Shown piece after piece: positions 13,066-62,398 of a stretch of DNA of 64,000 nt. The position numbers and the translations under genes were made by a program. The stretch is from Halobaculum litoreum. GTDB taxonomy: Archaea; Halobacteriota; Halobacteria; Halobacteriales; Haloferacaceae. The notes under the pieces are model-generated. The model had not been told where the DNA came from, did not search any database, and saw only the letters and a list, made by a program, of their open reading frames with translations. Where the stretch lies: contig NZ_CP126156.1 of NCBI RefSeq assembly GCF_030127125.1, positions 2,170,001-2,234,000 of the forward strand. Direction: 5' to 3'. Position 1 is the first letter of the stretch. Every line of letters begins with the position of its first letter.

Positions 13066-13527
13066 TCAGGGCCCCCCTTCGTCGTCGGCGGCGCCCGGGG
13101 AGCGCCCGAGGAGGTCGGGGAACCCCAGCGCGTCGAGGTCCTCGCCGCCGTCGAGCAGCCCCGCCCGGCGGAGCGCGGCCGGGAACTCGGTCGCGGTGAT
13201 CGGACGGCCCGCGGGGCCGGGGGACTCGACGTCGGCGTCGTCGCTGTGCGGCGACGATAGCGCCCCCCCGACCAGCTGTGCCCAGACGGCCGCGCCGTCG
13301 TCGGTGTCGCTCTCGGCGTGGACGACGCGGGCCTCCTGGGTGCCCTCCTGGTACGCGAGGTCGATGATGCTGCGGTCGTAGGAGGTGTCGAGCGCCGCGC
13401 GGAGGCGGTCGAACTCCTCGCGGTTCTCGTAGCCGAACGCCGCGGCCACGCCCAGCGCGTACGCCCGGCGGATCGCCTCCTCGTCGCTGATGTCGGTCCA
13501 GTCGGTTCCGAGCCTGTCCTCGTACAT
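13066..13527 (-). CDS. uncharacterised protein, paralogue A of a tandem pair
   Basis: 153 residues. Its ATG overlaps the TGA of the RAD55-like gene upstream by one base (TGATG), so translation is probably coupled. It has the same three blocks as its neighbour: SDEEAIRRAYALGVAAAFG, LDTSYDRSIIDLAYQEG and FPAALRRAGLLDGGEDLDALGFPD, joined by a divergent acidic linker. The two paralogues differ mainly in the linker and N-terminus, as expected of a duplication followed by specialisation. No known domain is recognised and no catalytic motif is evident. Confidence 0.78.
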   Translation of the reverse strand: MYEDRLGTDWTDISDEEAIRRAYALGVAAAFGYENREEFDRLRAALDTSYDRSIIDLAYQEGTQEARVVHAESDTDDGAAVWAQLVGGALSSPHSDDADVESPGPAGRPITATEFPAALRRAGLLDGGEDLDALGFPDLLGRSPGAADDEGGP

Positions 13528-14222
13528 CAGTGGGTGACCGGCCGGCCGTCCCCGACGACCAGCCCGGAGGACGTGAACTGCAGCCCTTGGATGTCGGTGT
13601 CGACGTCGGCGCCGCGCATCTTCACGACCTGCAGCCCGCGGCGCATCCCGTCGTCCTCCATGTAGTTGTGGAAGAAGACGACGCCGTGAGCGAGGAAGTG
13701 TTCGTCCGCGTACGCCGAGGGATCGGTCATCTCGGAGATCAGGTAGGTGGTGGCGCTCGTCCGCTTGAGCGCCGAGAGGAACCGCATCAGCGTGTTGTCC
13801 GTGTCGTCGAGCAGGTACCGCAGCAGCATCGTCGAGTCGATGACGACCCGGTCGATCTCCCGTGACTCGACGAACGAACTGATCCGGTTCGTGACGCTGT
13901 TGACGTCCCGTCGGTCGCCCGGCATCCCGAAGAACCGCTTCCCCTCCGAGGAGAAGGCGTCGAGGAACGTCACCGACCCCGACTCCAGCGCCTGCGCGAA
14001 GCCGAAGTCGTAGGCGTCCATGTCGCGTTCGAGGTCCGCCCGACTCTCGTGCATACTGATGAACAGACACCGGTCGCCGTCGGCGGCCCCCTCGGCGATG
14101 AACTGCGCCGAGAAGGTGGTCTTGCCGCTGCCCGGCGGCCCACAGACCACGTACAGCCGCTCTCCCGGCAGCCCCCCGCCGACGAGGTCGTCGAACCCCG
14201 CAACGCCGCTCGATACGCGCAT
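13527..14222 (-). CDS. RAD55/KaiC-like ATPase
   Basis: 231 residues, single RecA-type domain. Intact Walker A GPPGSGKTT (residues 28-36), a Glu/His switch region LFISMHESRADLERDM, Walker B DRVVIDSTML near residue 128 and VVFFHNYMEDDGMRRGLQVVKMRG near the C-terminus, as in the haloarchaeal RAD55/KaiC family. These are single-domain relatives of the clock protein KaiC; in haloarchaea some act on motility (CirA of Haloferax is one). It is the first gene of the operon with the tandem paralogues. The promoter has CCTTATGAG about 28 nt upstream of the ATG and a motility dyad at 14266-14279. Confidence 0.85.
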   Translation of the reverse strand: MRVSSGVAGFDDLVGGGLPGERLYVVCGPPGSGKTTFSAQFIAEGAADGDRCLFISMHESRADLERDMDAYDFGFAQALESGSVTFLDAFSSEGKRFFGMPGDRRDVNSVTNRISSFVESREIDRVVIDSTMLLRYLLDDTDNTLMRFLSALKRTSATTYLISEMTDPSAYADEHFLAHGVVFFHNYMEDDGMRRGLQVVKMRGADVDTDIQGLQFTSSGLVVGDGRPVTH

Positions 14223-14265: not shown

Positions 14266-14279
14266 ACTCAACGCTGATA
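14266..14279 (-). promoter_or_regulatory. motility dyad, RAD55-like operon
   Basis: Plus-strand reading ACTCA-ACGC-TGATA; on the minus strand TATCA-GCGT-TGAGT. It ends 13 nt upstream of the TATA-like CCTTATGAG (14244-14252, minus). This is the same element and spacing as at other motility promoters in the window. Confidence 0.55.
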
Positions 14280-14328: not shown

Positions 14329-14778
14329 TCACTCGGTCCGCGGCTCGACCCAGACGACGAAGCGGTCGTCGCCCTTGACGATCCCCCGGACGGAGTCGTC
14401 GCCGGCGGTGGTCGCCTCGTCGACCTGGTCGGGGGAGACGTCGCGCACCTGGAACACCTCGTCGACGACCCAGCCGACCGTACCGCCGTCGTCGACCTCG
14501 TCGGGGTCGAACACGATGATCCGCTCGCGTGCCCCGGTCCCCGTCACGCCGAGGAGGGTCTTCGGGTCGATGATCGTCGTCGTCTTGCCGCGCAGGTCCA
14601 TCACGCCCTCGACGTGGCGCGGCGAGTTCGGGATCGCCGTGAGGTCGCCCGCGTCGACGATCTCGTCGATGTACGCGATGTCGAGGCAGTACGTCTCGTC
14701 CCCCAGCCCGAACTCGAGCACCTGGGTCTGTTCGGCGTCGACCGTCCCGGCGTCCGTCGCCCGCTCGCTGCTTGCCAT
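14329..14778 (-). CDS. cheW: chemotaxis adaptor CheW
   Basis: 149 residues. CheW couples receptors to the CheA kinase. Seen: VLEFGLGDETYCLDIAYIDEI, the hallmark IPNSPRHVEGVMDLRGKTTTIIDPK and RIIVFDPDEV, ending in VWVEPRTE. The ATG at 14778 is preferred over the TTG at 14787 because CGTTAAGC lies 26 nt upstream. The gene faces cheB; the 140-nt spacer between them carries one motility dyad (14823-14836) that could serve both promoters, with tighter spacing toward cheW. Confidence 0.95.
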   Translation of the reverse strand: MASSERATDAGTVDAEQTQVLEFGLGDETYCLDIAYIDEIVDAGDLTAIPNSPRHVEGVMDLRGKTTTIIDPKTLLGVTGTGARERIIVFDPDEVDDGGTVGWVVDEVFQVRDVSPDQVDEATTAGDDSVRGIVKGDDRFVVWVEPRTE

Positions 14779-14822: not shown

Positions 14823-14836
14823 TATCAGCCGTGAAA
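14823..14836. promoter_or_regulatory. motility dyad between cheW and cheB
   Basis: TATCA-GCCG-TGAAA. Read toward cheW (minus) it ends 13 nt before the TATA box GCTTAACG (14802-14809); read toward cheB (plus) it ends about 15 nt before TTCAATAACG (14852-14861). The fixed spacing matches cheY, arlI, arlCE, archaellin and MCP promoters. Confidence 0.6.
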
Positions 14837-14880: not shown

Positions 14881-14922
14881 ATGATTCGAGACGCCACACG
14901 GCCGGCTGGGGGTGCGCCGTGA
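14881..14922 (+). CDS. leader mini-ORF of the cheB operon
   Basis: A 13-codon ATG frame (MIRDATRPAGGAP) at the predicted 5' end of the transcript. Its TGA overlaps the GTG of cheB by four bases (GTGA). Since cheB has no Shine-Dalgarno sequence, this looks like a leaderless mini-ORF that delivers ribosomes to cheB by termination-reinitiation. The same arrangement occurs at 63320-63364. Coding status is inferred from position only. Confidence 0.4.
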   Translation: MIRDATRPAGGAP

Positions 14923-16007
14923 GCGCGCGTGCGCCGCGGACGGTCGTGGTGGACGACTCCCGGTTCATGCGGGGACTCATCGCCGACATCCTGGAGTCCG
15001 GCGGCGTGGAGGTCGTCGGGGAGGCCGGCGACGGGCGGGAGGCGCTGTCGGTCGTCGCCGACACGGAGCCGGACGTCGTCACGATGGACGTGGAGATGCC
15101 CGAGATGGACGGGATCGAGGCGGTCGAGCGGCTGATGGCGGACACGCCGACGCCGACGCTGATGCTGTCGGCGTACACGGCGGAGGGGGCCGAGGAGACG
15201 TTCGAAGCGCTGGACGCGGGCGCGGTCGACTTCTTCGCCAAGCCCGGCGGCGAGGTGTCGATGGGCGTCTCCCGGCTGGAAGAACAGCTCGTCGAGACCG
15301 TCCGCTCGGTGGCGCGGGCGGACCTCTCGACGGGGAGCCGGCGCCGGCGGACGGCGGCCGCGGCGGCCGCGAGCGGCGCCGCCCGGAGCGACGCGGGCGG
15401 CACCGGCGACGCCGGTCCGGACGTCTCCGTCGAGCCGAACACGACGCTGATCGTCGGCTCCTCGACCGGCGGCCCCGACGCCGTCGAACGCGTGCTCTCG
15501 GCGCTCCCGGGCGAGGCGGACCTGCGCGGGGTCGTCGTCCAGCACATGCCCGAGGCGTTCACCGGTCGCTTCGCCGAACGGCTCGACGCCGCCTGCGACC
15601 TCTCGGTCAGCGAGGCCGAGGACGGGATGCGGATCGGCCGCGGGGAGCTCGCGGTCGCCCGCGGCGGCCACCACCTGGAGGTGGCGAGCGCCCGCGACGG
15701 TCGCCTCCGGCTGAATGTGATCGACGAGGAGCGCGGACAGGGCGTGCGCCCCTCGGTGAACGTGACGATGGAGTCGGCCGCGCGGGTCGTCGACGACCCG
15801 CTCGTCGGGGTCGTGCTGACGGGGATGGGCGCCGACGGGAGCGACGGCGTGCGGGCGCTGTCCCGCGCCGGGGCGCGCGTGCTCGCGCAGGACGAGGACA
15901 CCTGCGTCGTGTACGGGATGCCCAAGCGCGCGGCCGAGACCGGCTGCGTCGACACGGTGCTCCCGTTGGACGACATCGCGGGCGGCATCACGGGTGAGCG
16001 GGCGTGA
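14919..16007 (+). CDS. cheB: chemotaxis response regulator and protein-glutamate methylesterase CheB
   Basis: 362 residues. N-terminal receiver: VVVDDSRFMR with the acidic pair, phospho-acceptor Asp57 in VVTMDVEMPEMDG, and FFAKPGG with the conserved Lys. An Ala/Gly/Arg linker (about residues 135-165) leads to the methylesterase domain with SSTGGPDAVERVL (catalytic Ser), VVVQHMPEAFTGRFAERL (His) and LTGMGADGSDGVRAL (Asp). CheB removes methyl groups from receptor glutamates and so resets signalling. GTG start overlaps the leader mini-ORF; its TGA overlaps the GTG of cheA by four bases, so the operon is tightly coupled. Confidence 0.96.
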   Translation: MSARAPRTVVVDDSRFMRGLIADILESGGVEVVGEAGDGREALSVVADTEPDVVTMDVEMPEMDGIEAVERLMADTPTPTLMLSAYTAEGAEETFEALDAGAVDFFAKPGGEVSMGVSRLEEQLVETVRSVARADLSTGSRRRRTAAAAAASGAARSDAGGTGDAGPDVSVEPNTTLIVGSSTGGPDAVERVLSALPGEADLRGVVVQHMPEAFTGRFAERLDAACDLSVSEAEDGMRIGRGELAVARGGHHLEVASARDGRLRLNVIDEERGQGVRPSVNVTMESAARVVDDPLVGVVLTGMGADGSDGVRALSRAGARVLAQDEDTCVVYGMPKRAAETGCVDTVLPLDDIAGGITGERA

Positions 16008-21781: not shown

Positions 21782-22648
21782 TCAGGTGTTGACCGACTCG
21801 ATCCGCTGGCCCACGACGACGCGGCCCTTCGCCGTGAGTTGGGTCCCCTCGTCGGTGTCGACGAGCAGGTCCTCGTCGATGAGGCCGTTCAACAGCATGG
21901 TGAGCCGCTGCGGTTCGATGTCGACCACCTTGTTCAACGAGACGCCCGGTCCGGCCGAGTACGCCGCGACCAGCACCTCCATCTCCTCCTCGCTGGGCTC
22001 CAGGTCCTCCAGTTCCGCCTGCACGTCGGCGTAGCGCAGTCTGACGTACCGCCCGAGGACGTTCGTGAGCCGGCCGGACGTCATCCCCACCTCCGAGGTG
22101 ACGGCGGTGCCGTCCTCGACGTGGCGGAACGAGACGACCGGGTGGCTCCCGTTGCCGAGGTCGCGCTGGGCGCGTTCGACCGAGACGACGTTCGCGAGGT
22201 CGACGGTGAAGGCGTCGCCGTCCCCCTCGAAGGTGAGCGCGCCCTGCGTCACGTCGAGGCGCGTCTGCCGGGTGTCGGCGTCGACGACGCGGCCGCCGAC
22301 CTTCGCCGGGTGGCGCGCGAGCGCCTTGGTGCCGTTGAGCAGCACCTTGAACAGGATCGTCGCGAAGCGGTCGATGTCGGTCCCCTTCCCCTCGATGGCG
22401 GCGACCGCCCGCCCCTCGCCCTTCCGGTAGGCGACGGTGACGGTGTCGTTGAAGTAGCCCGCCATCTCCGGGGGGACCTGTCCGATGGTCACGTCGAACA
22501 CCTTCGACAGCGGGATCGTCTCCTTGTAGCCGTCGGCCGCGAGGACGAGCCGTCGCTGGCTCAGGATGATCCGGCCCCTCGGCGGCTCCCCGTCGACGCC
22601 GGGGGCGAAGAACCGACCGACGAAGTCCGCGACGACCGACTCGCTCAT
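21782..22648 (-). CDS. cheF: archaellum-specific chemotaxis adaptor CheF (second copy)
   Basis: 288 residues, the same DUF439/CheF family as the gene at 20215: RGRIILSQRRLVLAADGYKETIPLSKVFDV, FNDTVTVAYRKGEG, FATILFKVLLNGTKALARHPAKVGG and a C-terminal winged-helix-like segment LEPSEEEMEVLVAAYSAGPGVSLNKVV. Haloarchaea commonly carry two CheF proteins that both contact Che proteins and the motor. The ATG at 22648 is preceded by a weak TATA-like region at about 28 nt and by a degenerate motility dyad at 22692-22705. It converges with the secreted protein gene. Confidence 0.92.
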   Translation of the reverse strand: MSESVVADFVGRFFAPGVDGEPPRGRIILSQRRLVLAADGYKETIPLSKVFDVTIGQVPPEMAGYFNDTVTVAYRKGEGRAVAAIEGKGTDIDRFATILFKVLLNGTKALARHPAKVGGRVVDADTRQTRLDVTQGALTFEGDGDAFTVDLANVVSVERAQRDLGNGSHPVVSFRHVEDGTAVTSEVGMTSGRLTNVLGRYVRLRYADVQAELEDLEPSEEEMEVLVAAYSAGPGVSLNKVVDIEPQRLTMLLNGLIDEDLLVDTDEGTQLTAKGRVVVGQRIESVNT

Positions 22649-22691: not shown

Positions 22692-22705
22692 ACTCAGCGA
22701 TGAAA
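22692..22705 (-). promoter_or_regulatory. motility dyad (degenerate), second cheF
   Basis: Plus-strand ACTCA-GCGA-TGAAA; on the minus strand TTTCA-TCGC-TGAGT. It ends about 11 nt before the expected TATA position for the gene starting at 22648. One half-site is weak. Confidence 0.4.
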
Positions 22706-48284: not shown

Positions 48285-50126
48285 ATGGTGGCTGTGATGT
48301 GGCTGGTGCTCGCGGTGCTCGCGCTGTTCAGCGCGGGGTACCTCGGGTACTCGCGGTACCTTTCCAGGTTCGTCGAACTGGACGAGGATCGTGAGACGCC
48401 GGCCCACAAGTACGAAGACGGACAGGAGTACGTTCCGGCCAAGAAGCCGGTGCTCCTCGGGCATCACTATTCGAGTATCGCGGGCGGTGCACCCATCGTC
48501 GGCCCGATCACGGCCGGCGTCGTGTGGGGCTGGGTGCCCGCGCTGCTGTGGATCGGGATCGGCAACCCGCTGATGGGCGCGGTCCACGACTTCGTCTCGC
48601 TGTCGGCGAGTCTCCGGCACGAGGGGAAGTCGATCGGGTACATCATCGGCGAGTACGTCGGCGAACGCGGGAAGAACATGCTGCTGTGGTTCGCGTTCCT
48701 GACGATCATCCTCGTCGTGGCGGTGTTCGCGCTCGTCGTGGGCATCGTGTTCAACGCGTACCCCGAGGCGGCGACCGCGAGCCTGATCTACATCGCGCTC
48801 GCCGTGCTGTTCGGCGTGTACCTGTACCAGTTGAACCTCTCGTTCATCCCGGGGACGGTCGCGTTCGTCGCCGCGATGTTCGTGGGCGTGTACCTCGGGA
48901 CGATGTTCCCGGTGGCGATCTTCGAGCCGGCCGCGCGGGCGCCGGCCGACACGATCGTCCTGCTGGGTAGCGGCGGGTCGTGGCTCCCGGCCGCCGGCGC
49001 CTTCGGCGCCAACACGGCCGCGTGGGTCCCGTTCATCCTCGTGTACGGGGCGATCGCGAGCGCGCTCCCCGTGTGGGTGCTGCTCCAGCCGCGCGACTAC
49101 CTCTCGTCGTTCCTCCTGTACACGGGGGTCGGCGGGGCGCTGCTGGCGATCATCGTCGGCACCGTCGGCGGCTCGCTCGGCATCGCGGCGATCACGCCGA
49201 GCCAGCCGCTCGTGACGCAGTTGGAACCGTTCTACGGGTTCGTGGGGCGCTCCGGCGCGCCGCTGTTCCCGCTGCTGTTCATCACCATCGCGTGCGGGAC
49301 CATCTCCGGGTTCCACTCGCTGGTGTCCTCGGGGACGACCTCGAAGCAGCTGAACAAGGAGACGGACGCGCGCGCCATCGGCTACGGCGGCATGCTCGGC
49401 GAGGGACTGCTCGCCACCGTCGCCCTCGTCGCGGTCGCCATCGTCGCGCCCGAGGTCGGCGGCGGCATCGGCCTCGCGCTGCCGACGTTCGCCACCGGCG
49501 GCGGGATCATGCTGACCAGCTTCGGCATCCCCGCCTCCTTCGGCGGCCCGTTCATGGCGCTCGTGCTGGTGAGCTTCCTGCTCACCTCGACCGACACGGC
49601 CGTCCGGCTCGGCCGCTACATGATGGAGGAGATCGTCGGGACGCCCGAGACCCCCGTCGAGTCGTTCGCGTCGGACCGCTACGGCAACGCGCTCGTGCAG
49701 GCGGTGCCCGCGTACGTGCTCATCACCAGCGGTTCGTGGCTCACGCTGTGGCAGCTGTTCGGCGGCGCGAACCAGCTGCTGGCGGCGCTGGCGCTGCTCA
49801 CCGCGACGGTGTGGCTCGCCAACTGGAGCGACTCCAAGCAGCTGATCAGCACCGGCGGGCCGATGGCGGTCATGACCACGATCACCATCATCGGGCTGCT
49901 GTGGCTGGCGCTGCACGACAACCTCTACGCGAAGTTCCTCAACGACGCGTGGATGGCGGAGGCGACGACGGTCGCGATGATGTCGGCCATCGTCCAGATC
50001 GTCATCGCGTTCGTGCTCATCTACCTGGCGCTGTCGCTGGTGAAGATGGGCTACGAGAACATCCGGGACGCGCGCGGCGACGCCGGCGGCGCGGTCGCCA
50101 CCGACGGCGGCCGGGCCGACGACTGA
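48285..50126 (+). CDS. cstA: CstA-family peptide/pyruvate transporter
   Basis: 613 residues, about 16 membrane helices. YVPAKKPVLLGHHYSSIAGGAPIVGP is the conserved N-terminal signature of carbon starvation protein A (only its core is quoted), followed by GNPLMGAVHDFVSLSASLRH and IACGTISGFHSLVSSGTTSK. Family members import peptides or pyruvate under carbon limitation. It has a leader with a Shine-Dalgarno site and a palindrome upstream, suggesting control. The last helix ends before an acidic tail. Confidence 0.94.
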   Translation: MVAVMWLVLAVLALFSAGYLGYSRYLSRFVELDEDRETPAHKYEDGQEYVPAKKPVLLGHHYSSIAGGAPIVGPITAGVVWGWVPALLWIGIGNPLMGAVHDFVSLSASLRHEGKSIGYIIGEYVGERGKNMLLWFAFLTIILVVAVFALVVGIVFNAYPEAATASLIYIALAVLFGVYLYQLNLSFIPGTVAFVAAMFVGVYLGTMFPVAIFEPAARAPADTIVLLGSGGSWLPAAGAFGANTAAWVPFILVYGAIASALPVWVLLQPRDYLSSFLLYTGVGGALLAIIVGTVGGSLGIAAITPSQPLVTQLEPFYGFVGRSGAPLFPLLFITIACGTISGFHSLVSSGTTSKQLNKETDARAIGYGGMLGEGLLATVALVAVAIVAPEVGGGIGLALPTFATGGGIMLTSFGIPASFGGPFMALVLVSFLLTSTDTAVRLGRYMMEEIVGTPETPVESFASDRYGNALVQAVPAYVLITSGSWLTLWQLFGGANQLLAALALLTATVWLANWSDSKQLISTGGPMAVMTTITIIGLLWLALHDNLYAKFLNDAWMAEATTVAMMSAIVQIVIAFVLIYLALSLVKMGYENIRDARGDAGGAVATDGGRADD

Positions 50127-50623
50127 GCCGCCGCGCGGCCCCGACGCGGACGCGACGCGGTTCCTTCTTTCGACGCCCGTGACGCCAGCGGCGGCGCCGT
50201 CGTGCGCGGTCGCGACGGATGGACGCTGCCGCGACGGTCGCGATAGCCGGCGAAGGCGCCGGCTGGCCGCACCGAACGGGCTGGGGCGACGGGAACGGCG
50301 CGCCCGCGGTTCGCCGGCCGCGGGTCCGCCCCGCGACGACGGCGCGGGACGGTCGGCACGCCCGACGCGGAGCGCCCGCTCGCGACGACGCGTGACGGCG
50401 CGCGAAAACCGCGTCGGGGTCGAGGTGACGGAAACCAGGTCCCTACCCATGGCTTCGCCGCGACCCGACGGCGGCCACCTCCCGAGTCCCTCGTGTCCGC
50501 CGCTACCGGACCCACCGGGGCACCACGGATAACCGTTCCGCGCGGAGTATCAACGGTGAAACGGAGCTGTCGGCACCGTGCAACAACGGCCGACCGGGGG
50601 CGTGTTCGGGACCCGCCCGAGGA
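50127..50623. other. 497-nt region between cstA and arlJ with an orphan promoter
   Basis: No convincing protein in any frame; the only open frames are Arg/Pro-rich. On the minus strand there is a TATA-like GGTTATCC (50527-50534) with a motility dyad 13 nt upstream of it (50548-50561), predicting a transcript that starts near 50503 and runs toward 50127, antisense to the cstA end if it continues. Either a non-coding RNA, an unrecognised short gene, or a relic promoter. Confidence 0.4.
50548..50561 (-). promoter_or_regulatory. motility dyad without an obvious gene
   Basis: TATCA-ACGG-TGAAA on the plus strand; on the minus strand it precedes GGTTATCC by 13 nt, the spacing seen at arl and che promoters. 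Confidence 0.5.
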
Positions 50624-52379: not shown

Positions 52380-54047
52380 TCACGTCGTGCGGTGCATGTC
52401 GAACGGCAGTCCGTCGACGCCGTCGCGCTGGAAGGAGGTGATCGCCTCGTTGACCTCGTGGTAGCCGAGAACCCCCTCCTGGATCATCCGCTCGATGAGC
52501 TCCGCGCGGAAGCTCAGGTCGTCGTAGATGTCGCGGGTGTCGGCGTACCCCAGCAGCGTCGCGATCTGCTCTTCGAGCACGTAGGAGTTGTTGCGCCCGC
52601 GGAAGACGATCTCGTCCTCGACGGGGTCCCAGTCGAACACCTGCCGGGTGACGACGCCGTCCATCTCCTTGGAGTACCCCTCGATCTCCTGGACGGAGGT
52701 GACACGCCGGAGCACCTTGTCGCCCTGTTTGACGCGGTTCTGGAACAGCGCCACGTCGGCCACGTCCATGAACGTCTCCGGGACGTTGATCGGCTCGGAG
52801 GTGAACCGCTGGATCATCGAGACGATGTCGGACGCGTGGAACGTCAGCATCACGGGGTGGCCCGTCTGGGCCGCCTGGAACGCCATGCGACCCTCCGCGC
52901 CACGCACCTCCCCCACGATGATGTAGTCGGGGCGCGAACGCAGCGCGGCCGCGACGAGGTCGAACATGTCCACGTCGTTCGACTCGCCGCCGTCGCCCTC
53001 CCGGGTCAACAGCTGCTGCCACGTGTTGTGCGGGGGGATGACCTCCGCGGTGTCCTCCGCGGTGTAGATCTTCGAGTCGCGGGGGATGTAGCTGAGGACG
53101 GCGTTGAGCGTCGTGGTCTTCCCGGACGCCGTCTCCCCGACGACGAAGACGGTCTGCTCGTTCTCCAGACACAGCCACAGGTACGCCGCCAGTTCGGGAC
53201 TGAGCGTCCCCCACTTCGTGATCTGGTTGATCGACAGCGGCGTCTCCTCGCCCTGCCGGATGGTGAGCGAGGAGCCCTTGATGGAGACGTCGTCGGAGTA
53301 GATGATGTTGATACGCGACCCGTCCGGGAGCGTCGAGTCGATGATGGGGTTGGAGTCGGAGACGGGGTCGCCCATCCGCTCGCCCATGTTGCGCAGCCAG
53401 TTGTCGAACTCCTTCGGGGTCCCGAAGTCGACGGTCGTCTCCAGCATCCCGAACACGCCGTGGTCGACGTGGCACTCCTTCGGCCCGATGACGTGGATGT
53501 CCTCGTTCTCCGGGTCGCGCATGACCGGCTCCAGCGGGCCGAAGCCGACGATGTCGCGGTTGAGCCGGTAGCGGATGTTGTCGTACGTCTGCTTGGACAC
53601 CTCGACGCGACCGAAGTTCTTGATCGTCGAGAGCACGTTGCGGCCGGTCTGCTCTTCGGTGACTGCGGTGACCTCCTCCAACAGCTCCTCGATGAGGTCG
53701 TCGTAGCCGGACTCCCCCTCGGGGGCGGGCTTGTGGCCGCTCTGTCGCAGCAGCTTCGACTTGACCGTGTCGAGCACCTGCTCTTCGGCGCCCGACAGCG
53801 TCGGCTCGACGGTGTAGTACTTCGTGTCCTGGCCGAAGTCGCCGTACACGTGACAGAAGATCGGGCCGCCGACCGGGTAGAGCACGTTCGGCCGCTGGGC
53901 CTCGTGGTCGCCCTCGATGTCGTCGACGAACATCGGGAACTCCCCGGTGATCTGCTTGAACTTCTGTAGGTGCTCCCGCAGGTGCGGGCGCTTCATCGCC
54001 AGCTGCTTCAACTCGCTCGACGGGTTCGCCTGTCCCTGATCTGTCAT
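52380..54047 (-). CDS. arlI: archaellum motor ATPase ArlI
   Basis: 555 residues, secretion-superfamily (VirB11/GspE-like) ATPase that powers archaellum assembly and rotation. N-terminal domain with VGGPIFCHVYGDFGQDTKYY; then YRLNRDIVGFGPLEPVMRDP; Walker A VVGETASGKTTTLNAVLS near residues 300-316; Asp box around SKIYTAEDTAEVIPP; Walker B RPDYIIVGEVRGAEGRMAF; His box TFHASDIVSMIQRF. Unusually for this window, it has a leader of about 95 nt and a strong Shine-Dalgarno GGAGGTG 7 nt before the ATG. Promoter TTTAAGCC and dyad lie at 54168-54201. Confidence 0.97.
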   Translation of the reverse strand: MTDQGQANPSSELKQLAMKRPHLREHLQKFKQITGEFPMFVDDIEGDHEAQRPNVLYPVGGPIFCHVYGDFGQDTKYYTVEPTLSGAEEQVLDTVKSKLLRQSGHKPAPEGESGYDDLIEELLEEVTAVTEEQTGRNVLSTIKNFGRVEVSKQTYDNIRYRLNRDIVGFGPLEPVMRDPENEDIHVIGPKECHVDHGVFGMLETTVDFGTPKEFDNWLRNMGERMGDPVSDSNPIIDSTLPDGSRINIIYSDDVSIKGSSLTIRQGEETPLSINQITKWGTLSPELAAYLWLCLENEQTVFVVGETASGKTTTLNAVLSYIPRDSKIYTAEDTAEVIPPHNTWQQLLTREGDGGESNDVDMFDLVAAALRSRPDYIIVGEVRGAEGRMAFQAAQTGHPVMLTFHASDIVSMIQRFTSEPINVPETFMDVADVALFQNRVKQGDKVLRRVTSVQEIEGYSKEMDGVVTRQVFDWDPVEDEIVFRGRNNSYVLEEQIATLLGYADTRDIYDDLSFRAELIERMIQEGVLGYHEVNEAITSFQRDGVDGLPFDMHRTT

Positions 54048-54167: not shown

Positions 54168-54201
54168 CTTAAACCCTCCCCGCGAGCTATCACGGGCGAT
54201 A
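54168..54201 (-). promoter_or_regulatory. arlI-arlJ promoter with motility dyad
   Basis: Minus strand: dyad TATCG-CCCG-TGATA (54188-54201), then 11-12 nt, then TATA-like GGTTTAAGCC (about 54168-54177). The predicted start near 54145 leaves a leader of about 95 nt before arlI. It separates arlI-arlJ from the upstream arlCE-F-G-H transcript. The rest of 54048-54254 is non-coding. Confidence 0.6.
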
Positions 54202-55491: not shown

Positions 55492-55938
55492 TCAGGCCAC
55501 CTCGACGACGTCGACGGCGTCGCGGACGCCGTGGTCGACGACGACCTGCGTGCGGTTCGGCGCGGCCGCCAGGTCCACCTCGAACGTCACCGTCTCGCCC
55601 GGCAGCCACAGGTCGGTGGCGACGCCGCCCGCGACGGTGGTCGTGACGTCGGCCGTGGGCGGGATCGAGTTGTCGACGAGCAGCGTCGTGTCGTTCACGC
55701 CGACCGCGGTGGTGCCGTCGTTGGTGGCGTTCACCGTCAGCGTCGACGTGGTCGTGTTGTACGTCGCGTCCGTCACGTCGACGGCGGTGTTCGCGCGGTC
55801 GAGCGCGCGGTCGGCGGCGTCGTGGCGCGCGTCGGTGACCTGCTCGAAGCCGTTCGCCGCGGCCGGGTAGACGATGCCGACCGCGAGGAACACGCCGAGG
55901 AACACGACCCCTGCGGAGGCACTAACGCTGAGGCCCAT
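55492..55938 (-). CDS. arlF: archaellum stator protein ArlF
   Basis: 148 residues: N-terminal helix SAGVVFLGVFLAVGIVYPAA, a short coiled part, then a beta-sandwich (TLTVNATNDGTTAVGVNDTT, DLWLPGETVTFEVDL). ArlF binds the S-layer glycoprotein and with ArlG forms the stator. Its start lies 17 nt inside the end of arlCE, so the two are translationally coupled. Confidence 0.94.
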   Translation of the reverse strand: MGLSVSASAGVVFLGVFLAVGIVYPAAANGFEQVTDARHDAADRALDRANTAVDVTDATYNTTTSTLTVNATNDGTTAVGVNDTTLLVDNSIPPTADVTTTVAGGVATDLWLPGETVTFEVDLAAAPNRTQVVVDHGVRDAVDVVEVA

Positions 55939-57364
55939 GCATGCCCCCCGAGAGCTGCGGCCACCGGTCGATGACGACCGATTCGGCCGTGGCGTCGGTC
56001 AACTGCATGATGTACTTGAGCGAGCGCGTGTGGTGGTCGAGGTCGAGGTGGTCGGTCCCGGGGCGGTCCATGAGGTTGCGGTCGATGTCGCCGAACCCCG
56101 AGAGGAACCCCTTGAGCTGGTCGGCGACCTCGTCGTCGATCCACTCGACGCGCCGGTAGTAGTTGACCGCCCGCACCGCGTCGGTCGTGGTGGACTCCTC
56201 GACGAGGAACTCCAGCCACTCCATCACCATCAGGTCGCCCACGTAGTCGCCCGGCAGGCTCGTGAGGTACGGCTTGGCCGGCTCGTCGGAGAGGTCGTCC
56301 TCCTCGACGAACTCGAACCCGCCGTCGTCGTCGACGCCCGCGGCGCGTCGACTCGGGTCGGTCGGGCCCGCCGTCGACTCCGGTTCGGGGTCGTCGCCGA
56401 AGCCGAGGTCGTCGGCCTCGTCGTGGCCGTTCGTCCCCGGTTGGGTGTCGAGCGCGTCGAGCGGGTCGTCCCCGTCGTCGTCGGGCTCCGGCTCCGCCCC
56501 GGCGCCGTCGTCCCAGTCGGCGTCGCCCGACTCGTACTCGTCTTTCAGTTCGCTGAAGCTCTTGCCGCCGCCGTTGTCGGTCGCCATGGTGTCTGATTCG
56601 GTGTCGTCGTCCTCGTCCTCGAAGCCGTCGAGGTCGTCGTCGAACTTCTCGTCGTCCGCCGTCTCGTCGAACTCGTCGAGGTCATCCATGTCGTCCATGT
56701 CGCCCATGTCGTCCATCTCGTCGTCGAGACCGTCGTCCGCGAGGTCCTCGTCGAAGAACCCCTCCGCGTCGGCGCTGGCGAGGTCCTCGTCGAGGTCGTC
56801 CTCGCTCTCCTCCTCGCCGCCCGCGTCGTCGAACAGGCCGAAGCCGCCGGCGTCGCCCCCGAAGTCGCTGGCCTGGACGTCGTCGACGAAGGGGTTGATC
56901 CCGCGGGTGACCATCTCGTAGATGTCGAGGAGGCTCCGGACGTCCTCGCCCATGTCCTCGACCTTCCCGGAGATCTCCTCGTTCTCCGAGCGGACGGTGT
57001 TCACCGTCGACGAGAGGCTCGCGACCTCGTTCTCGAGGTCGTCGACCCGTTTCTCCAGCTCGGCGACGCCGTCGTCGCCGCCGTCCTCCCCCGCGAAGGG
57101 GTCGTCTTCGTCCCAGTCGTCCATGCCGCCGAGGTCGCCGAGGCCGTCGCCGCCGGCGTCGCCGCCGCCGCCGCCGAAGGCGCCGTCGTCGCCGCCGAGC
57201 AGGTCGTCGTCGTCGCCGGCGTCGCCGTCCCCGGGTCCGTCGTCGCCGTCGCGGAAGCGGTCGAGCAGGCTGGCTCCGAGGAGCCCCAGCGAGACCAGTA
57301 GTCCCGCGTCTGCTCCCGGGATCCCGCCGACCCATGCTCCCGATAGCGCGGTGAGGAGACCCAT
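55922..57364 (-). CDS. arlCE: archaellum switch protein ArlCE
   Basis: 480 residues, a fusion of the FlaC and FlaD/E modules. N-terminal hydrophobic stretch, a coiled coil (VAELEKRVDDLENEVASLSS), the FlaC part with DMGEDVRSLLDIYEMVTRGI and NPFVDD, a long acidic disordered middle (about residues 170-370, Asp/Glu-rich), then the ArlD/E domain AKPYLTSLPGDYVGDLMVME and EWLEFLVEESTTTDAVRAVN. It links chemotaxis (through CheF) to the motor. First gene of the operon; no separate arlD is present in the window. Confidence 0.95.
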   Translation of the reverse strand: MGLLTALSGAWVGGIPGADAGLLVSLGLLGASLLDRFRDGDDGPGDGDAGDDDDLLGGDDGAFGGGGGDAGGDGLGDLGGMDDWDEDDPFAGEDGGDDGVAELEKRVDDLENEVASLSSTVNTVRSENEEISGKVEDMGEDVRSLLDIYEMVTRGINPFVDDVQASDFGGDAGGFGLFDDAGGEEESEDDLDEDLASADAEGFFDEDLADDGLDDEMDDMGDMDDMDDLDEFDETADDEKFDDDLDGFEDEDDDTESDTMATDNGGGKSFSELKDEYESGDADWDDGAGAEPEPDDDGDDPLDALDTQPGTNGHDEADDLGFGDDPEPESTAGPTDPSRRAAGVDDDGGFEFVEEDDLSDEPAKPYLTSLPGDYVGDLMVMEWLEFLVEESTTTDAVRAVNYYRRVEWIDDEVADQLKGFLSGFGDIDRNLMDRPGTDHLDLDHHTRSLKYIMQLTDATAESVVIDRWPQLSGGMHGPQR

Positions 57365-57390: not shown

Positions 57391-57423
57391 ATAAACCCTG
57401 CCCGCGGATTATCGGGGTCGATA
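57391..57423 (-). promoter_or_regulatory. arlCE-F-G-H promoter with motility dyad
   Basis: Minus strand: perfect dyad TATCG-ACCC-CGATA (57410-57423), 12 nt, then TATA-like GGGTTTATGG (57390-57398), with the ATG about 30 nt further. This is the best-formed copy of the element. The remaining 116 nt to the cheC/cheD frame are non-coding. Confidence 0.65.
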
Positions 57424-59287: not shown

Positions 59288-59650
59288 CTACGCGGGGACG
59301 ACGTCGTTGATGGCTTCGAGCACGTTCGGCTTCTGGAACGGCTTCGTGATGTACCCCTCCGCGCCCGCCTTGACCGCGGCCTTCATCTTCTCCTCCTGCC
59401 CGACGCTGGTGCACATGATGACGCTGGCATCGGGGTGTTCCTCGGTGATCTCGGTGGTCGCCTCGATCCCGTTCCGGATCGGCATCACGATGTCCATCAT
59501 CACGATGTCGGGCGCGTGTTCGCCGTACAGGTCCACCGCCTCCACGCCGTTCTCCGCCTCGCCGACGATCTCGAACTCCCCCTCGAGGATCTCCCGCAGG
59601 AGGTTCCGCATGAACTCCGAGTCGTCCGCGATCAGCACGCTGGTCGGCAT
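59288..59650 (-). CDS. cheY: chemotaxis response regulator CheY
   Basis: 120 residues, receiver domain only. VLIADDSEFMRNLLREILEG with the acidic pair, phospho-acceptor Asp53 in DIVMMDIVMPIRNG, the conserved Ser/Thr region IMCTSVGQEEKMKAAV and Lys in GYITKPFQK. Phospho-CheY acts on the archaellum through CheF and ArlCE. The ATG at 59650 is preferred over an upstream start because TTTATCCC lies about 28 nt before it; the cheC/cheD frame follows by 2 nt, in one operon. Confidence 0.97.
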   Translation of the reverse strand: MPTSVLIADDSEFMRNLLREILEGEFEIVGEAENGVEAVDLYGEHAPDIVMMDIVMPIRNGIEATTEITEEHPDASVIMCTSVGQEEKMKAAVKAGAEGYITKPFQKPNVLEAINDVVPA

Positions 59651-59675: not shown

Positions 59676-59710
59676 GGATAAACACTCCCCCGCGACTATC
59701 AGCGGTGAAA
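59676..59710 (-). promoter_or_regulatory. cheY promoter with motility dyad
   Basis: Minus strand: TTTCA-CCGC-TGATA (59697-59710), about 11-12 nt, then TATA-like GTGTTTATCCCG (59676-59686), ATG at 59650. Confidence 0.6.
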
Positions 59711-60658: not shown

Positions 60659-61255
60659 TTACAGTTCGACGCCCTGCTGCTGCCCGAGCGACTCGGGCAC
60701 CGTGAACCGGATCGTCGTGGTCGAACCGGCCCGCGTGTTGATCTTGATCGTCACCTCGTCGCCCTCGTCGAGTAGCTCTGGATCGCCGCTACCGGTGGAG
60801 AGGTCGAAGTCGAGCGAGAAGCGGTCGTCCGGGTCGTCGAGGACGGTCGACGAACCGTCGACGTTCTTGATCTGCGAGGTGCCGAAACTGTCGTCGACGC
60901 TCTGGCTCGCGTTCTCGTGGTTGAGCAGGAACGTCCCGTCCGGGCCGATCCACGTGACGGTCACGTTTTCGAGGTCGATCTCGCCGGCGCCGGGCGCCTG
61001 CGTGACAGTGACGTTGACCTCGTCGATCTGGCCAGCGGGGGTCACGTTCCCGACGGTGGCGACCTCTTGGAGGCGGTTGCTGACCTGCTTACTGCTTTGG
61101 GTCCCCGTCTCCTGGGCCTTGCTCTGGAGGAAGCCCGCGGTGTTGATCAGGACGCCGGCGGCGATCGCCGCCACCAGCACCATCGCGATGAACACGATGA
61201 GGGTTCCGATACCCACCTGGCCGCGTTCGTCCTCGTCCGTCACGAACTCGAACAC
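60659..61255 (-). CDS. arlA2: archaellin (second of two)
   Basis: 198 residues, filament subunit. Class III signal: [20 protein letters not shown], cut by prearchaellin peptidase between Gly and Gln; the hydrophobic helix forms the filament core. The C-terminal beta domain has several N-glycosylation sequons (NVTV, NVTP, NASQ) and ends [15 protein letters not shown]. It follows the first archaellin by 2 nt and shares long near-identical stretches with it at the 5' end, consistent with gene conversion. Confidence 0.96.
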
Positions 61256-61257
61256 GG

Positions 61258-61845
61258 TTACAGCTCGACCGCGCTCTTCTGTCCGAGCGACTCGGGCACC
61301 GTGAAGCGGATGCTCGTGGTCGCGCCGGCCATCGTGTTGATCTTGATCGTGACCTCGGAGCCCTCGGCGAGCGAACTCGGGGAGTCACTCAGCGTGAGGT
61401 CGAAGTTGATGTTGAACCGGTCGTCCGGGTCGTTCAGCACGTTGGTGGACGTGTCCGTGTTCTTCACCGCGGTCGTGTTGAACTGCCAGCCGGCCTCGCC
61501 GGAGCTGTTGTGCGTCAGCGTCTCGGTCCCCTGCGGGCCGATCCAGTTGATCGTCGCGTTCGAGAGGTCGACCTCTCCCGCACCCGGGGCCAGCGTCACC
61601 GTCACGTTCACCTGATCGATGCTGTTCCCGCTCACCGACCCGGTCGTGACGACCTCTTGGAGGCGGTTGCTGACCTGCTTACTGCTCTGTTGTCCGGTCT
61701 CCTGCGACTTGCTCTGGAGGAAGCCCGCGGTGTTGATCAGGACGCCGGCGGCGATCGCCGCCACCAGCACCATCGCGATGAACACGATGAGTGTCCCGAT
61801 ACCGACCTGCCCGCGCTCTTCCTCGTCCGTGATGAATTCGAACAT
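61258..61845 (-). CDS. arlA1: archaellin (first of two)
   Basis: 195 residues. Signal [20 protein letters not shown] as in its neighbour; then ITAG-type helix and a variable beta domain with sequons NVTV, NATI, NSSG and NTTA, ending [15 protein letters not shown]. Promoter: dyad at 61931-61944, TATA-like GTTTAATATTC at 61908-61918, giving a leader of about 45 nt. It heads a two-gene archaellin operon. Confidence 0.96.
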
Positions 61846-61907: not shown

Positions 61908-61944
61908 AATATTAAACCTACGGCGCCGAGTATCGGATGGGATA
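61908..61944 (-). promoter_or_regulatory. archaellin promoter with motility dyad
   Basis: Minus strand: TATCC-CATC-CGATA (61931-61944), about 12 nt, then GGTTTAATATTCG (61907-61919). Confidence 0.6.
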
Positions 61945-62023: not shown

Positions 62024-62053
62024 CGCTTATCACCACCACAATCAGTATTGAGA
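62024..62053 (+). promoter_or_regulatory. winged-helix gene promoter with downstream dyad
   Basis: TATA-like CGCTTATCAC at 62024-62033. A dyad copy AATCA-GTAT-TGAGA lies at 62040-62053, between the TATA box and the ATG at 62057, where bound protein would block transcription. Confidence 0.45.
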
Positions 62054-62056
62054 GCT

Positions 62057-62398
62057 ATGCCCGCGGACGACGAGGAGATCATCGAGGTGCTGGGGAACAA
62101 GTACAACCCCGAGATCCTCGATGCGGCGGGAGAACCCAAGTCTGCACAGGAGCTGTCGGACCAACTCGGGGTGCCGATCGCCACCTGCTACCGCCGGATC
62201 AACGAGCTGGAGGACACCGAACTGCTGGAGCTCCACGACCGGCCGCTCTCCGACGAACACCGCCGGATCAAGGTGTACAGGCGCTGCGTCGACGGCGTGA
62301 ACGTCACCTTCCGGGACGGGCTGACCGTCGAACTGGAGGAGCGCTCGGAGGTCAAGAACAAGCTCGACGACGTGTGGCGGACGATGACCGACGGCTGA
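62057..62398 (+). CDS. winged-helix regulator in the archaellum block
   Basis: 113 residues. N-terminal winged helix: EEIIEVLGNKYNPEILDAAG, SAQELSDQLGVPIATCYRRI (helix-turn-helix) and NELEDTELLELHDR; a beta wing around SDEHRRIKVYRRCVDGVNVT; a C-terminal helix ELEERSEVKNKLDDVW likely for dimerisation. ArsR-like in fold, without Cys for metals. Its place next to the archaellins matches that of euryarchaeal archaellum activators such as EarA, and a dyad lies at its own start. Regulator of the motility genes is the favoured reading; unproven. Confidence 0.85.
   Translation: MPADDEEIIEVLGNKYNPEILDAAGEPKSAQELSDQLGVPIATCYRRINELEDTELLELHDRPLSDEHRRIKVYRRCVDGVNVTFRDGLTVELEERSEVKNKLDDVWRTMTDG

Follow-up and report, generated by a model that had tools for sequence, protein, structure and literature searches.

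A winged-helix gene beside the archaellin genes

The window is a stretch of 64,000 nucleotides of Halobaculum litoreum DNA, and the locus studied here, csmR, occupies positions 62024 to 62398 of it. Position 62024 belongs to the promoter only, and the coding part is an open reading frame of the + strand (62057–62398) that opens with the ATG at 62057, closes with a stop codon ending at 62398 and encodes 113 amino acids. As had been proposed, the gene stands beside the archaellins: two archaellin genes (60659–61255 and 61258–61845) are divergent from it, and a 211-nt intergenic region separates csmR from arlA in Halobaculum. The features of the locus are:

62026–62031, + strand: CTTATC, TATA-like box of csmR, read from the sequence; the TATA region is kept in 11 Halobaculum promoters
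62040–62053, + strand: self-dyad AATCA-GTAT-TGAGA (AATCAGTATTGAGA), probable autorepression operator, from sequence, position and conservation
62057–62398, + strand: csmR orthologue, winged-helix regulator (HTH_20, orthology, PMC13286277)
62413–63141, − strand: KaiC-like gene after csmR, probable CirA counterpart (PF06745, E 5.7e-51; synteny; PMC13286277)

The protein carries an N-terminal winged-helix/HTH domain (HTH_20, 36.2 bits against a Pfam cut-off of 27); its Pfam matches are all to HTH domains at the N-terminus, and a C-terminal RAM/AsnC effector domain is absent from its 113 residues. We rejected an Lrp/AsnC label because the HTH_AsnC-type match stays under the Pfam cut-off and no RAM/AsnC domain is present, and a TrmB label because PF01978 scores 20.8 bits against a curated cut-off of 25.6. 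A sequence search of solved structures returned no real relative of the csmR product. Its AlphaFold model is poor (pLDDT 57), and Foldseek with this low-confidence model matched winged-helix proteins including Pyrococcus furiosus Phr (2P4W) and ArsR/MarR-type regulators, all at E above 0.001, which only supports a winged-helix fold for the DNA-binding core and nothing finer; these proteins resemble the csmR product at the level of the fold, but have other targets. A winged helix, with Phr among the structural matches, has been reported for CsmR too (PMC13286277).

CsmR (HVO_1209) is a 13-kDa winged-helix protein encoded beside arlA1/arlA2 in Haloferax volcanii (PMC13286277, June 2026). The comparison set for the csmR product consisted of 112-residue proteins other than HVO_1209 from the genus Haloferax (genus g49, recognised as Haloferax by its plasmid matches; e.g. 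L126), to which it is 59–61% identical over the full length, while the next-best copies within its own genome reach 38% identity with E 8e-9 or worse. An orthologue is present in 144 of the 153 complete genomes of the family, and archaellin and KaiC/cirA genes adjoin it in most of the inspected loci, and this synteny extends across the family. Because of the full-length identity, the far weaker copies elsewhere in the genome and the kept arlA and KaiC neighbours, the 62057–62398 protein is almost certainly the CsmR orthologue, predicted to recognise the same dyad in this species.

The dyad at target promoters and at the start of csmR

In H. volcanii, ChIP-seq of CsmR yielded the semi-palindrome TATCA(N4)TGATA within a ~34-bp element that adjoins the TATA box, found in 50 of 65 peaks, the arl operon included (PMC13286277). 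A scan of the window with TWTCANNNNYGATA, allowing up to one mismatch, gave 11 strand-hits at six loci where 0.85 were expected, a number that none of 100 shuffles reached. Eight copies besides the one at 62040 were found:

61931–61944, − strand: dyad TATCC-CATC-CGATA with GTTTAAT 13 nt downstream; archaellin gene arlA (61258–61845)
59697–59710, − strand: dyad TTTCA-CCGC-TGATA with GTTTATC 13 nt downstream; cheY-like receiver gene (59288–59650)
57410–57423, − strand: dyad TATCG-ACCC-CGATA with GTTTATG 13 nt downstream; arlCE (55922–57364)
54188–54201, − strand: dyad TATCG-CCCG-TGATA with GTTTAAG 13 nt downstream; arlI (52380–54047)
50548–50561, − strand: dyad TTTCA-CCGT-TGATA with GGTTATC 13 nt downstream; followed by no convincing protein gene
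22692–22705, − strand: dyad TTTCA-TCGC-TGAGT with GGTCAAG 13 nt downstream; cheF (21782–22648)
14823–14836, − strand: dyad TTTCA-CGGC-TGATA, between the divergent genes cheW (14329–14778, −) and cheB (14919–16007, +)
14266–14279, − strand: dyad TATCA-GCGT-TGAGT with CCTTATG 13 nt downstream; KaiC-like gene (13527–14222)

All eight lie upstream of a TATA-like element at a spacing of exactly 13 nt, and the 14 nt of the dyad, the 13-nt interval and the 7 nt of the TATA-like element add up to 34, equal to the length of the published element. In the Haloferax-genus loci (g49), arlA, cheY and other genes are preceded by the same dyads, set at the same distance from the TATA-like element. That the winged-helix protein governs the dyad regulon, as the original prediction had it, is thus supported by synteny and by the binding of its orthologue to TATCA(N4)TGATA at arl/che promoters, demonstrated in H. 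volcanii, and it is already known from that published Haloferax study (PMC13286277). The two systems share orthologous winged-helix proteins of 112–113 residues, archaellin and KaiC (cirA) neighbours, the same dyad by the TATA box and arl/che targets; they differ in that Halobaculum csmR is divergent from arlA with a dyad between TATA box and ATG, whereas the Haloferax-genus csmR promoters are without one.

A second KaiC-like gene (13527–14222, −) has a CsmR-type promoter, composed of the dyad, the 13-nt interval and CCTTATG. Transcription from the 50548 promoter would proceed in the direction of the 3' end of a membrane-protein gene (48285–50126, +; carbon-starvation CstA-like, judged by eye), and a small RNA or a small gene is possible there. 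Genome-wide pattern searches also showed a dyad (G000:C1:495903–495916, L039) 13 nt before the TATA-like element of another archaellin gene, one that lies at a great distance from the arl cluster.

Matches to the dyad plus TATA box average 7.3 in the 144 genomes with csmR and 1.1 in the nine without it. We take this co-occurrence as support, not proof, because it reflects in part a joint loss with motility genes: five of the nine lack a detectable arlF, and the inspected arl region of the other four (genus g10, L154–L157) contains no canonical archaellin or cheY, which makes the csmR-less genomes weak as natural knock-outs. Divergent arlI/arlF genes are present in genus g10, and another regulator or another filament type is likely in these species.

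EarA of Methanococcus and Pyrococcus is also a winged-helix archaellum regulator, with its site just upstream of the BRE. The suggested resemblance to EarA holds for the winged helix and the genomic position, but not for sequence or structure, in which no similarity between CsmR and EarA was found (PMC13286277). The known EarA site does differ, as had been noted: it is of the TACATA type, and by eye the arlA and arlCE promoters here contain no TACATA and carry the dyad instead. We rejected the EarA label on both grounds.

At the start of csmR, a direct reading of the sequence places AATCAGTATTGAGA at 62040–62053, between TATA box and ATG as originally described, 8 nt downstream of CTTATC and separated from the ATG by 3 nt. 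The site is real; it had been described as the tenth of its kind, and eight other copies, not nine, were found. It is imperfect, matching the published palindrome at eight of ten positions, and a scan with AATCANNNNTGAGA allowing up to two mismatches returned 10 matches against 9.77 expected, so the exact string does no better than chance; the importance of the site comes from its position and its conservation in relatives, not from its score in this genome. The distance from the TATA box to the transcription start is well established for haloarchaeal promoters. With the csmR TATA box centred near 62029, we infer a leaderless start near 62055–62057, and the dyad would therefore span roughly −16 to −3.

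Probable autorepression and the sign of regulation

We propose that CsmR, probably as a dimer, binds the dyad WWTCA-N4-YGATA in two settings. At arl/che promoters the dyad precedes the TATA box by 13 nt, which puts it immediately beyond the BRE. In the csmR promoter it falls between the TATA box and the start codon, the transcript presumably being leaderless; CsmR bound there could block the loading of RNA polymerase or the opening of the start site and so produce negative feedback. Archaeal regulators bound downstream of the TATA box stop RNA polymerase recruitment and those bound upstream of BRE/TATA can activate; EarA and Ptr2 are upstream activators. TrmBL1/Tgr of Thermococcales and TrmB of Halobacterium salinarum (VNG1451C) do both with one palindrome, repressing from sites downstream of TATA and activating from upstream ones, and autoregulation has been proposed for Tgr. 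They are sugar-sensing proteins, however, and the csmR product falls under the curated TrmB cut-off. Judging from position, we consider it rather probable that CsmR represses its own gene through the 62040 site.

The sign at the upstream dyads is a different matter. Deletion of csmR in H. volcanii abolishes motility, yet arl/che transcripts go up, an increase for which the authors favour indirect effects, and overexpression gives more motility (PMC13286277). Activation from the upstream sites does not stand in the form first stated, and the rule that upstream sites activate may fail for CsmR, because its deletion raises target transcripts. CsmR might then repress everywhere, arl/che through the upstream dyads and itself through the downstream one, with the mutant being non-motile through misexpression. 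We regard this as unlikely: the upstream dyads end ~13 nt before the TATA box and beyond the BRE, where activators typically bind, and both the non-motile mutant and the gain of motility on overexpression, as well as the authors' own argument for indirect effects, speak against it (PMC13286277).

Conservation and possible rewiring of the self-site

Within 28 nt of the csmR ATG, scored against the published palindrome, 14 of 30 clade representatives carry a self-dyad with at least eight of ten matches that ends 3–8 nt before the ATG, where shuffles predict 0.3. Every one of the 11 Halobaculum and 24 Halorubrum csmR promoters matches the palindrome at eight of ten positions (the Halorubrum count leaves out the listed L022, which is of a different genus and has no match). 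In Halorubrum the arms of the self-site hold 1.5–2.0 bits per position, three of the four spacer positions 0.3–0.5 bits, and most of the TATA–dyad interval is also far lower than the arms; such conserved arms around a variable spacer look like the footprint of a bound dyad.

These patterns also bear on whether the dyad is an operator of CsmR at all. It could be an initiator or start-context element, or be bound by a winged-helix regulator other than CsmR, given that the GATAACG part by the ATG is kept in more genera than the left arm (in Haloarcula, Halovenus and Halosimplex) and that the Halobaculum spacer is nearly invariant. In Halorubrum, however, the left arm is conserved and the N4 spacing exact while the spacer varies, at least eight of ten matches is rare at control ORF starts (17 of 2226), and the GATA arm is oriented toward the gene as at target promoters, all of which makes this explanation improbable. 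That the dyad instead serves the divergent arlA as a remote second operator, given the 211-nt intergenic region that the two genes share in Halobaculum, is very improbable and we rejected it: arlA already possesses a dyad at 61931, placed at the usual 13-nt spacing, the csmR–arlA distance ranges from 211 to 1089 nt among relatives while the dyad keeps a constant position relative to csmR, 3–6 nt from the ATG even where arlA is 550–1089 nt away (850 nt, for example), so that the dyad belongs to csmR, and species of genus g3 keep it though their archaellum genes lie elsewhere. We return to a CsmR orthologue with upstream dyads at arl/che and a self-dyad for negative feedback, which is the best explanation as a whole and a reasonably probable one. 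The self-site is a new, well-conserved addition to the published picture of CsmR, with a putative role as operator.

The layout at csmR varies among genera. The downstream dyad is absent from the csmR promoters of Haloferax, Halonotius, Halohasta and others, with genera g25 and g7 among those that have none. The Haloferax promoters examined came from seven species of the genus other than H. volcanii, and from these sequences H. volcanii probably has no csmR self-dyad either. Such a lack fits the published account, in which csmR transcript levels are stable across conditions and autoregulation of csmR is not mentioned in the main text (PMC13286277). In the csmR promoters of Haloarcula and relatives, TATCA(N4)CGATA directly adjoins the TATA box and TGATAACG is found at the start/ATG, a different self-regulatory layout seen in L092, L096, L100, L101, L106, L117, L120 and L122. 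In genus g5 the csmR dyads are upstream of the TATA box. The Halolamina-like genus g3 (L158, L159, L160) keeps the self-dyad as TCTCA-N4-CGATA, with the KaiC gene adjoining; its archaellum genes are away from csmR and without dyads, and csmR may serve other genes there. We suggest tentatively that CsmR is a position-dependent regulator whose negative feedback loop has been rewired in the course of evolution, with a downstream operator in Halobaculum, Halorubrum and others, a TATA-abutting dyad in Haloarcula and one upstream of the TATA box in genus g5, while Haloferax has no dyad.

A previously unnamed winged-helix gene is now tied to a just-published regulator of haloarchaeal motility. With a downstream dyad at csmR and upstream dyads at arl promoters, one genome supplies the promoters with which to ask directly in vitro if CsmR is an activator, a repressor or both, the paradox left by the H. 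volcanii study. The laboratory model Haloferax may be atypical in having no self-operator, and if the rewiring is true, the model species would be missing a loop that is present in much of the group.
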